This document shows, piece after piece, positions 10,201 to 60,143 of a stretch of 64,000 nucleotides of DNA. Position numbers and translations under genes: made by a program. The stretch is from Methanomassiliicoccales archaeon LGM-RCC1 (GTDB lineage Archaea > Thermoplasmatota > Thermoplasmata > Methanomassiliicoccales > Methanomethylophilaceae). The stretch is taken from NCBI GenBank assembly GCA_030168575.1, contig CP115555.1, forward strand, positions 868,001 through 932,000, read 5' to 3'. How positions within the stretch are numbered: the stretch's first letter is position 1; every line of letters starts with the position of its first letter. Under the pieces are notes generated by a model. The model was not told the origin of the DNA. It did no database searches and saw nothing but the letters and a program-made list of their open reading frames with translations.

Positions 10201-10325
10201 GTCCTTGCGATATAGAATCGGATAACGAGGGTGATGACATGATAGTTTACAGCGACTTTTTGTGAATTCTCAAGGATAGCATTATATCCTCATATGAAAT
10301 CGATACAATGTTCCTGAAGGATTTA

Positions 10326-10533
10326 GGCCCCTGAAGGGGCCTTGGTTCTCAAAGGAACCATCTTAGCAATTCGGACATTGTCCGGATTGCCGAGAGGACG
10401 AGGGAAACGAATTCGAACTTGGTTCCCCTGTCCTCTTCCTTTGCAGGTATTTAATCACCTCCTAAGGATTAGGTACGGGCAAACAGTCCGGTCGCGATAG
10501 GAAGTCCTTCGCGACGGACTTCCTTCCCCGCCC
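10326..10533 (-). ncRNA. Candidate hairpin-rich non-coding RNA upstream of aspS
   Basis: No gene fits here, but the DNA is a chain of hairpins. Reading leftward from a predicted start near 10533: GGAAGTCC/GGACTTCC (10500-10523; an overlapping alternative pairs GTCGCGA with TCGCGAC); GAGGAC..GGGAA/TTCCC..GTCCTC (10394-10435); a 10-bp stem at 10367-10389; TGGTTC/GAACCA (10343-10360); and GGCCCC/GGGGCC (10326-10341), which could terminate it. A TATA box at 10554-10563 preceded by an element shared with 58.9 kb suggests minus-strand transcription. No RNase P, SRP or T-box motif was found. Strand and ends are inferred. The remaining 10201-10325 shows nothing I recognise. Confidence 0.45.
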
Positions 10534-10553
10534 ATTAGGATACTGGGGTTTCC

Positions 10554-10611
10554 AAGATTTAATGACCATAAGGGCTTTCTACGGTCTATAGATTGCGACC
10601 CCCTGGCCGTT
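10554..10611 (-). promoter_or_regulatory. Shared promoter element, copy B (upstream of candidate ncRNA)
   Basis: Bases 10561-10611 align without gaps to 58901-58951: 37 of 51 identical, and 32 of 41 outside the first ten. The blocks GCTTTCTA and TCTATAGATTG are invariant. In both copies a minus-strand TATA-like ATTAAAT or ATTATAT sits at the same end. At the other locus this TATA is ~25 bases from the start codon of a regulator gene, so the analogous start here is near 10533. Confidence 0.55.
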
Positions 10612-10721
10612 ATTTAAACGAAGGATCTATCGGCAAATCCGCGATCGTTTCGTGCAATACTCGCTTCCAATCCCCTTTTATAATACTTTATTAGTAGCGT
10701 GCGATAGTTAGAGGCGCTCTC

Positions 10722-55026: not shown

Positions 55027-56148
55027 ATGCCAGAGGAATTCACTGTCACCCCATGGGAGGTCAAGGGGGACATCGACTACGACCTGCTGATGCAGAAGTT
55101 CGGAACCAGTCCGATAGACGATGCCCTCATGGACAGGCTGTCCACGTACGGCGACCTCCACCCGATGCTCAAGCGCGGTATATTCTACACCCACCGCGAC
55201 ATGCTCTGGCTGCTGAACGAGTACGACAAGGGGAACAGGTTTACGATCTACACCGGGAGGGGACCCTCAGGGAACACCCATCTCGGACACCTGATGCCGT
55301 GGATGTTCAACAAGTGGATGCAGGACACGTTCGGCGTGAACATGATCTTCCAGATGACCAACGACGAGAAGTTCCTGTTCAAGGACATGGAGCTGAAGGA
55401 GACCACCGACATGGCCTACCAGAACGCCCTGGACTTCATAGCGCTGGGATTCGATCCCAAGAAGACGAGGATCATCGTCAACACGAAGAACATCGACAAG
55501 CTGTACCCGATCGCCCTGAGTGTGGCGAAGAAGGTCACCTTCTCCACCGCCAAGGCGGTGTTCGGATTCGACAACTCCACGAACATCGGATCGATATTCT
55601 TCACCGCCATGCAGTCGGCCCCGGCGTTCCTGCCCTCGGTCGATGCAGGTAAACAGGTGCCCGTGGTCATTCCCTGTGGTATCGACCAGGATCCCCACTT
55701 CAGGGTCTGCAGGGACGTCGCTCCGGGGTTGGGATTCCCCAAGCCCTCGCTGATCTGCTGCAAGATGATGCCTGGCCTTTCCGGCGGGGACAAGATGTCA
55801 TCCTCGGACGAGAACGCCACCATATACACCACCGATACCCCCAAGCAGGTCAAGAAGAAGGTCGGCAGGGCTTTCACCGGCGGATGCGTCAGCGTGGAGG
55901 AGCAGAGGGAGAAGGGCGGAAACCCCGAGGTCTGCGCCGTATTCAAGTACAACTACTACATGTTCGAGCACGACGATGCCGAACTGAACGAGATGGCACG
56001 CAAGTGCCGCAGCGGAGAGGTGCTCTGCGGGGAATGCAAGATGTGCCTCACCGAGAAGATCAATGTCTTCCTCGAGCAGCATCAGGACAAGAGGGAGAAG
56101 GCAAAGGACGTCATCGCGGAGATGGCGTACGACGGATTCGAATGGTGA
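55027..56148 (+). CDS. trpS: Tryptophanyl-tRNA synthetase
   Basis: 373-residue archaeal/eukaryotic-type TrpRS (class I). HIGH-like motif GPSGNTHLGH (~residues 80-89), KMSSS in GGDKMSSSDEN (~256-266), the FTGGCVSVEEQREKGGNPEVCAVF segment and a Cys pair CGECKMC near the C-terminus. A TATA-like TTTATTAATA at ~54992 gives a leaderless start. Followed by pheS after four bases. Confidence 0.96.
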   Translation: MPEEFTVTPWEVKGDIDYDLLMQKFGTSPIDDALMDRLSTYGDLHPMLKRGIFYTHRDMLWLLNEYDKGNRFTIYTGRGPSGNTHLGHLMPWMFNKWMQDTFGVNMIFQMTNDEKFLFKDMELKETTDMAYQNALDFIALGFDPKKTRIIVNTKNIDKLYPIALSVAKKVTFSTAKAVFGFDNSTNIGSIFFTAMQSAPAFLPSVDAGKQVPVVIPCGIDQDPHFRVCRDVAPGLGFPKPSLICCKMMPGLSGGDKMSSSDENATIYTTDTPKQVKKKVGRAFTGGCVSVEEQREKGGNPEVCAVFKYNYYMFEHDDAELNEMARKCRSGEVLCGECKMCLTEKINVFLEQHQDKREKAKDVIAEMAYDGFEW

Positions 56149-56152
56149 TCCC

Positions 56153-57673
56153 ATGGTAAGCGCTGAGATTCTGGAAGGATTGAGCTACAACGAGAAGAGA
56201 CTGCTGCTGGCGCTGGGCGCCAGGGGAGGCTCCGCCTCTCCTGCGGAGCTCATAGCGGATAAGCAGTTCGGTCTGGAGGTCGAGGTCATGGGAGCCGCCT
56301 CCTGGCTGGAGTCCAAGGAGCTGGCTAGGATCACCGAGAGGGTGGAGAAGTTCATCGTCCTGACGGATGAATCCATAGTCTCCACCGGGCTTCCCGAGAG
56401 GACCGCGGTAGTGAAGATCAACGAAGCGGGCGGAAGGATGGACATGGACGCCCTCGCGGAGCAGATGCCCGGAGGAATGGACAAGGTCGCCGTCGGATGG
56501 CTTAAGAGGAAGGCATTGGCGGACATCGTCGCCGAGGGCGACAGGAAGTTCCTGGTGCTCACCGACAAGGGGAAGGCTGTGCTCAATGAGGAGATGCCCG
56601 AGGAGGCGTTCCTCAAGAGGCTGGCCGAGAACCCCGTGCCCGAAGCGGAGGCTGACAAGAACATCGTCAAGGACCTCAAGGGCAGGAAGGGAATGATCGG
56701 CGAGAAGGTCGTTACCGAGAGGAGCATCGCACTCACCGACCTCGGAAAGGAGGTCGCCAACTCAGGATTGGAGCTGAAGGAGGAGGTCACCGAGGTGACC
56801 GACCGTCTCATCCAGTCGGGAGAATGGAAGAACGCCGAGTTCAGGAAATACGACATACAGACGTTCGCTCCCGCTATCGTCCCTGCGAAGAAGCACCCGC
56901 TGTCCAGGCTCGGTGCGGAGATCCGCAGGATGTTCACCGACATGGGATTCACAGAGATGTCATCTGAGTACGTCCAGCCATCGTTCTGGAATCTCGATGT
57001 CCTCTTCACGCCGCAGGACCATCCCGCGAGGGACCTGCAGGATACATTCTATCTGGAGAGGCCGAAGGCCATCCACATCGACGACGAGGAGCTCGTCGCC
57101 AAGATCAAGGCGATCCACGAGAACGGCGGGGACACCGGTTCCACTGGATGGGGAGGCAAATGGTCCAGGGAGATGGCGGAGTCCGCGCTCCTCAGGACGC
57201 ACAGCACCTGCTCGTCCATCAGGTACATCGCGGCCCATCCGGATGCACCGCAGAAGGCGTTCTCGATATCCAGGATATTCAGGAACGAATCCATCGATTC
57301 CACCCATCTTCCGGAGTTCACCCAGATCGAGGGAATCGTCATCGACGAGAAGGCGGACTTCAACATGCTGATCTCGATGATCAAGGAGTTCTACAGCAAG
57401 ATGGGATTCGACCAGATCCGCATCCGTCCGGCGTACTTCCCGTACACCGAGCCGTCGCTGGAGATAGAGGTCTTCTTCAACGGAAAGTGGATGGAGCTCG
57501 GAGGAGCGGGCATGTTCAGGCCAGAGGTCCTGGCGCCGTTCGGAGTCAAGACGCCTGTGCTCGCATGGGGATTCGGATTCGAGAGGCTCGCCATGCTGAA
57601 ATGGGACATCAGGGACATCAGGGACCTGTACATCTCCGACATCGACACCCTCAAGAAGAACACCGTGTTCTGA
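56153..57673 (+). CDS. pheS: Phenylalanyl-tRNA synthetase alpha subunit
   Basis: 506-residue archaeal-type PheRS alpha chain (class II). N-terminal winged-helix DNA/RNA-binding repeats (~residues 1-190), then the catalytic core: HPLSRLGAEIRRMFTDMGF (~245-263), motif 2 SISRIFRNESIDSTHLPEFTQIEG (~365-388) and motif 3 ending AWGFGFERLAMLKW (~470-483). The start is ATG 56153; an upstream in-frame extension lies inside trpS. Its 3' end faces a leftward gene whose frame reads into it. No pheT lies nearby. Confidence 0.96.
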   Translation: MVSAEILEGLSYNEKRLLLALGARGGSASPAELIADKQFGLEVEVMGAASWLESKELARITERVEKFIVLTDESIVSTGLPERTAVVKINEAGGRMDMDALAEQMPGGMDKVAVGWLKRKALADIVAEGDRKFLVLTDKGKAVLNEEMPEEAFLKRLAENPVPEAEADKNIVKDLKGRKGMIGEKVVTERSIALTDLGKEVANSGLELKEEVTEVTDRLIQSGEWKNAEFRKYDIQTFAPAIVPAKKHPLSRLGAEIRRMFTDMGFTEMSSEYVQPSFWNLDVLFTPQDHPARDLQDTFYLERPKAIHIDDEELVAKIKAIHENGGDTGSTGWGGKWSREMAESALLRTHSTCSSIRYIAAHPDAPQKAFSISRIFRNESIDSTHLPEFTQIEGIVIDEKADFNMLISMIKEFYSKMGFDQIRIRPAYFPYTEPSLEIEVFFNGKWMELGGAGMFRPEVLAPFGVKTPVLAWGFGFERLAMLKWDIRDIRDLYISDIDTLKKNTVF

Positions 57674-58873
57674 GGGCACGTAATCCGAGACCATATCCAT
57701 CAGCACTGATAGGATTATCTTCCTGTCATGGTTGCGGCTGAGACGAAGGGCGCTGTTCAGGAGCTCCTTGGCGCATTCGCTGTTGCCAAGCTCCATCTCT
57801 ATCACCGCTTCCCAGCGGAGGAGCTCGTCCATGCGGAAGATGCAGCCTTCGTCCAGCATCCTCTTTCTCGTTGATTCAAGGACCTTCAGAGCGTCGATAT
57901 AGCGGCAGTTGGCGTAAAGGCAGAGGCCGAGGACCATACCTGAATCGATATCGACAATTCCCCGGGCCGACGCCAGGGAGAGGGCCTCCCTGATCCTGTC
58001 GGATCTCAGTAACACTTCGCACATCAGAGAATATCCAAGGCACGGATCGGATTCGATTATCTTCGGCACCATCTCAGAAGCGGTCTCCAACCCGCCCGTA
58101 TCCAAGGCCATCCTCGCTGCCATCGGCAGCAGGTCGGAACGTCCGTTCCTCATCACCATCTTGGATACAACCGCGGATAGGTCCCGGTCCGAATGGTCCA
58201 CTATGTCAAACGTATGTTCGGTCAGCAGCCTCAGTGCTTCCCTATCCCTGTTGGACATCCCCAGATGATACACCCTTTCCGATATCGGGCATCCATGGTC
58301 CAGGCACCAGTCGGCAGCCATGCTGTGCCATTCCGTCTGCTTATCCTTCGGACTTATCTTGAGCAGCTTGGTCCTGAATGCCGCCTGGACGGTCGCTTCC
58401 CCATTCGGCCTCATCACTATCAGGGGGCTGGCGAACTTCACATCGGATGCCATGATCCGTGTGCGCAGCAGGCTCAGGCACCCGATGCAATCCAGTCGGT
58501 CCCCCAGATTCCTCCTGAGCGTATCGAAGTCCTTCGCATCCATGATCGAACAAAGGTCCAACAGCTCCACATCATCCTCCTTGAGGGACCTGATCCTGTC
58601 GGCGAGTATCTTCTTCCCGGTGTCGGTGATGTGATACACCTTCCTCTTTGCAGGACGGTTCGACTTCTTTATGCTGGCGAATGAGAACACGACCTCGTTG
58701 GATTCGATCATCCTTCTCAGAATGATGCTGACATGGGACCTGGTGATCCCGACGGACACCGCTATGCCGTCCTGAGTGATCTCCGAGGGGGCGTCGTAAT
58801 CGATGTCGTATCTCAGGTGCCTGTAGTTGAATAGGTGGGCGAGGATCTTGTCGTGGTATGAAACGCGTTCCAT
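56960..58873 (-). CDS. Winged-helix regulator with helical repeats; frame reads through into antisense of pheS
   Basis: The first ~400 codons (58873-57674) look like real protein: an N-terminal winged helix (residues ~1-90: ITQDGIAVSVGITRSHVSIILRRMIESNEVVFSF), then helical TPR-like repeats (~150-395: EALRLLTEHTF, AARMALDTGGLETASEMV, ALKVLESTRKRML, ECAKELLNSALRLS). No stop follows until 56960, so the last ~237 codons are antisense to pheS and look like shadow sequence (EHRRLDSERRQDLWPEH). The original 3' end has probably been lost. ATG 58873 has a TATA at 58894-58902, preceded by the 51-bp shared element, so the mRNA is likely leaderless. Confidence 0.65.
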   Translation of the reverse strand: MERVSYHDKILAHLFNYRHLRYDIDYDAPSEITQDGIAVSVGITRSHVSIILRRMIESNEVVFSFASIKKSNRPAKRKVYHITDTGKKILADRIRSLKEDDVELLDLCSIMDAKDFDTLRRNLGDRLDCIGCLSLLRTRIMASDVKFASPLIVMRPNGEATVQAAFRTKLLKISPKDKQTEWHSMAADWCLDHGCPISERVYHLGMSNRDREALRLLTEHTFDIVDHSDRDLSAVVSKMVMRNGRSDLLPMAARMALDTGGLETASEMVPKIIESDPCLGYSLMCEVLLRSDRIREALSLASARGIVDIDSGMVLGLCLYANCRYIDALKVLESTRKRMLDEGCIFRMDELLRWEAVIEMELGNSECAKELLNSALRLSRNHDRKIILSVLMDMVSDYVPSEHGVLLEGVDVGDVQVPDVPDVPFQHGEPLESESPCEHRRLDSERRQDLWPEHARSSELHPLSVEEDLYLQRRLGVREVRRTDADLVESHLAVELLDHRDQHVEVRLLVDDDSLDLGELRKMGGIDGFVPEYPGYRERLLRCIRMGRDVPDGRAGAVRPEERGLRHLPGPFASPSSGTGVPAVLVDRLDLGDELLVVDVDGLRPLQIECILQVPRGMVLRREEDIEIPERWLDVLR

Positions 58874-58893: not shown

Positions 58894-58951
58894 AGAATAT
58901 AATGGGGGCAACCGCTTTCTAGCATCTATAGATTGAAACCCCTTGGGCGTT
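58894..58951 (-). promoter_or_regulatory. Shared promoter element, copy A (upstream of winged-helix/repeat gene)
   Basis: Minus-strand TATA-like ATTATATTC at 58894-58902 is ~25 bases from the ATG at 58873. Immediately upstream, 58901-58951 matches 10561-10611 without gaps (37 of 51), including GCTTTCTA and TCTATAGATTG. The position just above TATA is where an archaeal activator or repressor would bind. The core ends GATTGAAAC, which resembles a CRISPR repeat end, but there is no array. Confidence 0.55.
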
Positions 58952-59309
58952 TGAAGGGCTGTGAGCATTCGAGGAGGAACGGCGTCACGTCTTCATTCTA
59001 AAGTCGGGGGCCGTCTTTTATTCGGAGAATCGCCTGATAGCAATATTCATTTCCGAACAAGTTCTCAGACGAGAGGGTCCGATGCCCAGCACCGGAAGTC
59101 CTGTGCACCGGACTTCCTGCTCCTCTGGCAGATCACCATCTAACGGAGCGTATAAGGCTAAGAAGGGGAGGTGGCCGAATGTGGACCTGGAGCCGTAATT
59201 TTAAGGATCTAAGATTCTCCGAAAAACCGCAAAAATGGCTGAAAAGGCCCGACTGAAAGTGAAAATCGAATCGGAACCCATTTTATCCCATCACACGGTT
59301 CCTTGAGGC
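58952..59309 (-). ncRNA. Intergenic region with a second GGAAGTCC hairpin; candidate leftward RNA from ~59127
   Basis: No gene is supported here. GGAAGTCC (59094-59101) and GGACTTCC (59110-59117) form an 8-bp stem around TGTGCACC; flanking AGCA/TGCT extends it on the minus strand. A minus-strand TATA-like CCTTATAC (59150-59157) predicts a start near 59127, putting the hairpin at +10, exactly as in the candidate RNA at 10.5 kb (loop TTCGCGAC there). Sequence outside the hairpin differs. A plus-strand TATA-like TTTTATCC at ~59280 serves dtdA. Confidence 0.35.
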
Positions 59310-60143
59310 ATGGCAAGGCTGTTGGTCTGCAGCGAACCCGACCTCCCGTCGGCGAATATGAAGGAATCCCTGCTGAGGATGCATGAGTGGGAGGACATGG
59401 GGTCCGATGGCAGGAACTCCTATCTGTCCAACGGGGACACGGTGATGGTGACGATCCCGGACCTGCACATCCGCCACGAGGACCTAGACAAGGAGGCGGA
59501 GGCGTTCGGCATCAAGGTGGACGAGGTCATAGTGATGAGCAAGCATTCCGCCGCAAGCGGCAGGCCCGCGCTCACCGCGCATCCGATAGGGAACTACCAT
59601 GAGAACGATTTCGGAGGGAAGGCGGAGGCCGTCGTGAAGGCCAATCCGGCGCTGATGACCGATGCGCTGAGGAGGATGGTATCATTCAACGACATCCCCG
59701 ACGAACAGCTGTGCTTCGAGGTCACCCATCACGGCCCGTGGATGGAGAAGCCCACGTTCTTCATCGAGGTGGGCAGCGAGGAGAGGGAGTGGGGCAACAA
59801 GCATGCCGCCGAGATCCTCGCGAAGGTGATCGATTCCCTCGAACCCCATGAGGAGTATCCCTCTGCGATAGGCATCGGGGGAGGCCATTACGCCCCGAGG
59901 TTCACCGAGGTGGCGCTGAAGTACAAGGTGAATTTCGGACACATGATCCCCAACTACCATCTGGAGGGAAGGGACGATGAGGACATCGTCAGGATGATAG
60001 GGCTGGCAGGAGAGGCCACCGGCACTAAGATGGTGTATCTGCATGGGAAATCCATGAAGAAGGCCGAGGAGAGGAGGATCGAGGGCCTGATAGAATCGGT
60101 CGGTTACGAGAGGATTAAATCCGCTGATCTGGAGCCTTTGTGA
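59310..60143 (+). CDS. dtdA: D-aminoacyl-tRNA deacylase (archaeal DtdA/DTD2 type)
   Basis: 277 residues. Hydrolyses D-amino acids from mischarged tRNA. Family landmarks: SKHSAASGRPALTAHPIGNYHENDFGGKA (~residues 78-106), TVEVTHHGP-like FEVTHHGPW (~136-144), and GIGGGHYAPRFTEVALKYKVNFGHMIPNYHLEG (~189-221), the conserved GGGHY/GH core. A TATA box ~27 bases upstream suggests leaderless transcription. Confidence 0.94.
   Translation: MARLLVCSEPDLPSANMKESLLRMHEWEDMGSDGRNSYLSNGDTVMVTIPDLHIRHEDLDKEAEAFGIKVDEVIVMSKHSAASGRPALTAHPIGNYHENDFGGKAEAVVKANPALMTDALRRMVSFNDIPDEQLCFEVTHHGPWMEKPTFFIEVGSEEREWGNKHAAEILAKVIDSLEPHEEYPSAIGIGGGHYAPRFTEVALKYKVNFGHMIPNYHLEGRDDEDIVRMIGLAGEATGTKMVYLHGKSMKKAEERRIEGLIESVGYERIKSADLEPL

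Follow-up and report, generated by a model that had tools for sequence, protein, structure and literature searches.

A putative type I toxin-antitoxin-like RNA family with a palindromic leader loop in Methanomethylophilaceae

Bacterial type I toxin-antitoxin loci, such as tisB/istR, hok/sok, aapA/isoA and ldr/rdl, share a tiny amphipathic peptide of ~30 amino acids, a leader with competing helices, a convergent antisense promoter, and the occurrence of tandem multicopy arrays and decayed copies. The TisB peptide carries alternating charges on one helix face (PMC8309996). Toxin mRNAs contain metastable hairpins, and in the hok family a metastable 5′ hairpin is followed later by a stable form (PMC6733600). 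Passages of a 2025 paper (PMC12390103) place the type I systems found so far only in Proteobacteria, Firmicutes and Tenericutes; within the literature searched, the loci have been described from bacteria only. A second described system that bears on this work is the SL1/DIS hairpin of HIV-1, which has a palindromic loop with unpaired purine flanks. According to passages of two papers (PMC9010304; PMC4588261), a long-range pairing takes the place of the DIS hairpin in the HIV-1 monomer.

Here, we analyzed a stretch of 64,000 nucleotides (the window; G000:C1:868001-932000) within a single-contig archaeal genome of 1.66 Mb. An earlier note had described two copies of a dyad, GGAAGTCC-N8-GGACTTCC, with palindromic centers. 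Both are exact (P1 hairpins in Table 1), and no third exact copy was found when the 1.66-Mb genome was searched. The whole-genome count that the note proposed thus gives just two sites, so the dyad is not a frequent, promoter-less repeat. The 24-bp dyad of the note does not stand alone: it belongs to an RNA of ~210 nt, and in relatives within the genus the hairpin is embedded in a longer conserved stretch. The best explanation is that the dyad is the 5′-terminal hairpin (P1) of an RNA transcribed leftward. We give a probability of roughly 0.6 to the reading that these RNAs form a type I toxin-antitoxin-like family whose leader refolds and may dimerize, a likeness that we do not extend to membership of the class. 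See Table 1 for the coordinates of all features.

Table 1. Features of the two RNA copies, the neighboring promoter and the 51-bp element, in window coordinates
Feature	Position	Strand	Remarks
Convergent (antisense) TATA CATTATATCC, complete copy	10280..10289	+	position conserved in 46/77 family loci
3′ hairpin (P6) GGCCCCUUCAGGGGCC, complete copy	10325..10341	-	
Small ORF, 33 aa, IPAKEEDRGTKFEFVSLVLSAIRTMSELLRWFL, complete copy	10349..10450	-	near-cognate AUA at start position
Leader, SD and first half of ORF (R1 match), complete copy	10393..10535	-	104.7 bits, E 1.7e-31
Shine-Dalgarno AGGAGGUGA, complete copy	10455..10463	-	
P1 hairpin, complete copy	10500..10523	-	palindromic loop UCGCGA
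TATA box, complete copy	10556..10564	-	
51-bp element	10574-10615, core 10585..10602	.	upstream of TATA of complete RNA copy
TATA box, winged-helix/repeat regulator gene	58897..58904	-	
51-bp element	58914..58955, core 58925-58942	.	independent of the hairpin; likely activator/promoter site of winged-helix/repeat regulator
Degenerate leader copy	59028..59133	-	cmsearch R1 34.0 bits, E 1.9e-9, and fold
Strand D (GGUGCUGGGCAUCGGAC), degenerate copy	59077..59093	-	pairs with GUCCGGUGC of P1 in P1′
P1 hairpin GGAAGUCC-G(GUGCAC)A-GGACUUCC, degenerate copy	59094..59117	-	self-complementary loop
TATA box of leftward leader RNA, degenerate copy	59150..59157	-	

The RNA was searched for with a covariance model (R1) built from ten copies. 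R1 matches 37 of 102 Methanomethylophilaceae genomes in 7 of 14 genera. A single genome can have as many as 19 matches, although some are weak or on the opposite strand of a copy. Copies often lie in tandem arrays, 350–450 bp apart. An order-level search outside Methanomethylophilaceae returned two weak R1 matches only, and the distribution suggests that the family is essentially limited to Methanomethylophilaceae. Named records with the RNA belong to Candidatus Methanomethylophilaceae and include one from sheep rumen. The source genome has at least four copies: the two in the window and two at genome positions 690699-690840 and 686990-687131. The exact pattern of helix P3, searched in a collection of 84,980 species, matched outside Methanomethylophilaceae mostly at scattered places in unrelated bacteria, by pattern match alone. 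Viral contigs L259 and L260 match the P3 pattern on the same basis. The exact dyad is present in four viral contigs, but these fit the model only around P1, so a viral origin was rejected. A tmRNA-like reading, considered when inspecting the sequence, was not adopted. The RNA has no match in Rfam at the gathering score and four peptides have none in Pfam or NCBIfam above cut-off, so routine annotation would miss the family.

P1 pairs GGAAGUCC with GGACUUCC, and more than one standard pair type occurs at every pair position. For P1 together with the loop pairs, 88.1% are paired compared with 75.0 ± 1.1% after shuffling, and covariation is 0.460 compared with 0.222 (0/500 shuffles). Departures from Watson-Crick pairing in P1, read on the leftward strand, are G·U in 37 cases and A·C in 2. 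This asymmetry, with the position of the TATA box, assigns the RNA to the window's minus strand. The fold of the 10.4-kb copy has a minimum free energy z score of −8.8. The earlier note had left open whether the dyad acts as RNA or as a DNA-binding site; P1 covariation, the G·U/A·C asymmetry, the longer structured RNA, the TATA box and the open frame of intact members favor RNA and count against a DNA site. That the region is a structured RNA leader is highly probable.

The 3′ half of GGAAGUCC and the loop have a second complement, a downstream strand (D), and the resulting helix, P1′, excludes P1. Each copy pairs specifically with its cognate strand D: the mean z score was −1.27 and the cognate ranked in the best 5% for 29 of 78 copies; the same test gave 4 of 78 for a further candidate helix, P0, which was dropped as a covarying helix. 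The median cost of forcing P1 is 5 kcal/mol, and from this we infer that P1 should be metastable and form early, with P1′ as the stable state. As in hok-family mRNA, one segment is complementary to two others and both mutually exclusive helices are conserved. Unlike hok-family mRNA, to which there is no known sequence relation, sequestration of the Shine-Dalgarno (SD) sequence was not seen: its predicted accessibility is ~0.33 with or without P1. Therefore, P1 is not obviously hiding the SD, and we rejected that role. A GGAA:UUCC pseudoknot alongside P1′ was also rejected as sterically implausible, because a linker of zero length would need to span ~12 bp. The competing helices constitute a testable switch.

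The palindromic center of the P1 loop, which the earlier note had seen in both copies of the window, is real and far above chance across the family. Perfect palindromes of at least 6 occur in 44 of 73 unique copies, where 6.6 are expected and the maximum of 5000 shuffles is 15. There are ~20 different palindromes, including UCGCGA, GUGCAC, GCUAGC, GCAUGC, GCGCGC, CGUACG and CACGUG, as well as UGUACA, UGCGCA, CCAUGG, CUGCAG, GACGUC, GUCGAC and others. In HIV, the palindromes are GUGCAC and GCGCGC, both of which are thus also in this RNA family. Covariation of the loop pairs in 38 aligned hairpins is 0.824 compared with 0.232 ± 0.046 (0/500 shuffles), and 20 double changes fall on the two adjacent bases at the center alone; as the sequences are related, these counts are not independent events. 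Since neighboring bases are unable to pair with each other in a single RNA molecule, their covariation suggests that two molecules pair. The earlier note had described one mismatched pair in the dyad, which turns out to be a conserved trait and no plain flaw: the loop on the RNA strand is usually 5′ purine-N6-A 3′ around a variable palindrome. The stem thus bears the DIS-type feature of a 6-nt self-complementary loop with purine flanks, here a 5′ purine and a 3′ A. Whether the leader dimerizes through the putative kissing loop we regard as evenly balanced. Unlike the HIV-1 DIS, this is an archaeal mRNA leader, known from sequence, with ~20 palindromes in one family and a putative role in expression control instead of packaging. 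A loop that changes in sequence and yet stays self-complementary is a natural experiment on RNA homodimerization in a cellular mRNA.

Downstream of the leader comes GGAGGUGA, then an open frame whose end falls in a narrow range. The family ORF has 30–45 codons and its product is amphipathic (for example, MSKSSKDQGGLIAKVNLVLQAIRLLVELLKV and MSGKPKDQESCLSKLNLVLQVVRLIVELLK), which fits a small hydrophobic or amphipathic peptide of <60 amino acids. The 33-residue ORF of the 10.4-kb copy matches the frame of the same-species copy L145. Spacing between the P3 strands equals 2 modulo 3 in 73 of 79 copies. Over the same span, and leaving aside four copies with a misplaced anchor, in-frame stops number 13 in frame 0 (10 TAG, 2 TAA and 1 TGA) compared with 94 and 36 in the other frames. 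Across 73 peptides, the core LVLEAIRLLVELLR/K carries charges at positions 3, 6, 10 and 13, on one helix face. Codon-position bias is weak (164:149:229). In the span searched for start codons, AUG was found in 22 of 80 copies, another or near-cognate codon (GUG, UUG, CUG, AUC, AUU, AUA, ACG) in 36 and none in 22. We consider it very likely that the ORF is coding.

TAG predominates among the frame-0 stops. At L253 (genome 690634-690756, minus strand) an in-frame TAG stands at codon 11 (MDEEDGPRDV-TAG-FHLASLALEIGRF...), as it does in the second genome of the species. The source genome has a PylS gene, and pyrrolysine at such codons is therefore possible; L253 is a candidate pyrrolysine micropeptide, and the in-frame ambers as a group would be very short candidate pyrrolysine peptides. 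In other species, an in-frame TAG lies inside or just ahead of the P3 loop at L121, L091, L120, L096 and L078.

Promoter-like motifs occur at both ends. We counted TATA hexamers in an orientation-specific scan, in which tandem copies are not independent. Sense motifs peak at −30 to −20 from the leader start across the family; the leftward TATA box that the earlier note placed outside the hairpin at 59.1 kb is present and approximately fits this position. Convergent antisense TATA motifs occur in 46 of 77 loci, 95 to 150 bases past P3, and in the bin at +120 past P3 there are 40 antisense hexamers compared with 11 sense. A predicted transcript from there would cross the ORF. Judged from the sequence motifs, a convergent promoter facing a small ORF is how a type I toxin-antitoxin locus is laid out.

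An intact member may be pictured as a short mRNA with a TATA box, leader, SD, an AUG or near-cognate start, a 30–45-codon peptide and a 3′ hairpin, its transcript starting at about the first leader bases. The convergent promoter just downstream would direct a putative antisense RNA over the ORF. During transcription P1 would form first, its self-complementary loop could kiss a second transcript, and the RNA would then refold from P1 to P1′. Leader folding, the weak start codon and the antisense RNA would together hold down translation of a putative membrane-active, potentially toxic peptide. We give type I-like function about an even chance. Differences from the bacterial type I loci are the archaeal host, near-cognate starts, in-frame ambers, the self-complementary loop and the lack of a match to a known toxin family for the four peptides searched in Pfam and NCBIfam; the loci here are known from sequence alone. 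Since the type I loci in the literature searched are all bacterial, a widespread, tandem, multicopy family of this layout in archaea would carry the kind into a second domain. A bolder proposal, which we offer tentatively and consider rather doubtful, is an archaeal first: type I toxin-antitoxin-like mRNAs that recognize their own copies. Each locus or small group of loci would have its own palindromic kissing loop, which a transient hairpin would expose and the competing stable helix would hide, with transcript concentration setting the fold, and some of the peptides would contain pyrrolysine.

A rival reading is that these are small-peptide genes with a structured regulatory leader and no toxin-antitoxin role; the peptide would regulate at the membrane, and the convergent promoter would be weak or irrelevant. 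The coding and leader evidence is identical for this reading, and no conserved neighbor genes were seen in six regions, which also suits it. We nevertheless hold it to be unlikely, given the convergent antisense TATA in 46 of 77 loci, the tandem multicopy arrays with decayed copies and the TisB-like charge pattern. A purely non-coding structured RNA, in which the conserved P3 and P4 helices happen to leave a frame open, was favored on the first alignment. It draws on the very strong structure, the compensatory changes in P1 and P1′ and the near-cognate or absent start codons of many copies. It was dropped because of the P3 spacing, which changes in threes, and the stop counts, with far fewer stops in one frame and a bias to TAG. 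The narrow range of the terminal stop, the conserved amphipathic sequence and the suitably spaced SD also speak against it, and we judge it very improbable.

The same dyad could instead serve as a DNA operator that binds a dimeric regulator, with RNA folding incidental. Such an operator would account for a near-perfect dyad close to promoters and for variable centers that stay palindromic, and non-Watson-Crick pairs in the loop show no sense-strand G·U bias (A·C is commoner). However, an excess of G·U over A·C of 37 to 2 in the P1 arms is meaningless for duplex DNA, and on this strand asymmetry we rejected a stand-alone operator. The dyad also lies downstream of the TATA box and within the transcribed RNA, which has further helices and an ORF. 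At a protein-binding site, moreover, the center should either stay the same or drift, not switch to other palindromes. We therefore consider an operator very improbable, and keep to the type I-like RNA family.

The copy at 59.1 kb, which the earlier note had flagged, retains the TATA box, P1, P1′ and UCUGAGAA. It has GGAAAUGA in place of the SD and is without P3 and the family ORF. With SD and ORF lost, this copy upstream of the regulator is most likely a relic, or at most a possible non-coding leader RNA. The second genome of this species has a diverged counterpart (L035/L146), in which the loop palindrome is lost (GATACACA).

The 51-bp element that the note reported in the gap at 58.9–59.2 kb was confirmed by its core, for which 0.01 chance matches are expected in the window. 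It has five genomic copies, the three outside the window being at genome positions 679388, 974119 and 1542911. Read as CAATCTATAGAnnnTAGAAA, it stands ~10–20 bases ahead of a TATA-like box at all five places: upstream of the 10.5-kb RNA, the winged-helix/repeat regulator (58.9 kb), a BspA-type LRR protein and two related ORFs, of which one matches PD-(D/E)XK weakly. The earlier note implied that element and hairpin form one unit upstream of the regulator. They are instead independent modules that meet twice in the window, as three of the five element copies are without the hairpin and the RNA family members at 690699-690840 and 686990-687131 are not among the element's five places. The element was not found in 59 relatives with one mismatch allowed. 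It looks like a site that acts as DNA, for an activator or as part of the promoter, in a putative small regulon of five promoters. A CRISPR-repeat-like reading, considered on inspection, was not adopted.

The open frame of the regulator (56960-58873, minus strand) overlaps, over 714 bases, the antisense of a synthetase gene (56063-57673, plus strand). Its last part resembles antisense translation, and the true end may be at ~57.7 kb, or there may be a frameshift. On the other side, beside the relic, lies an ORF (59310-60143, plus strand) that resembles an archaeal D-aminoacyl-tRNA deacylase.
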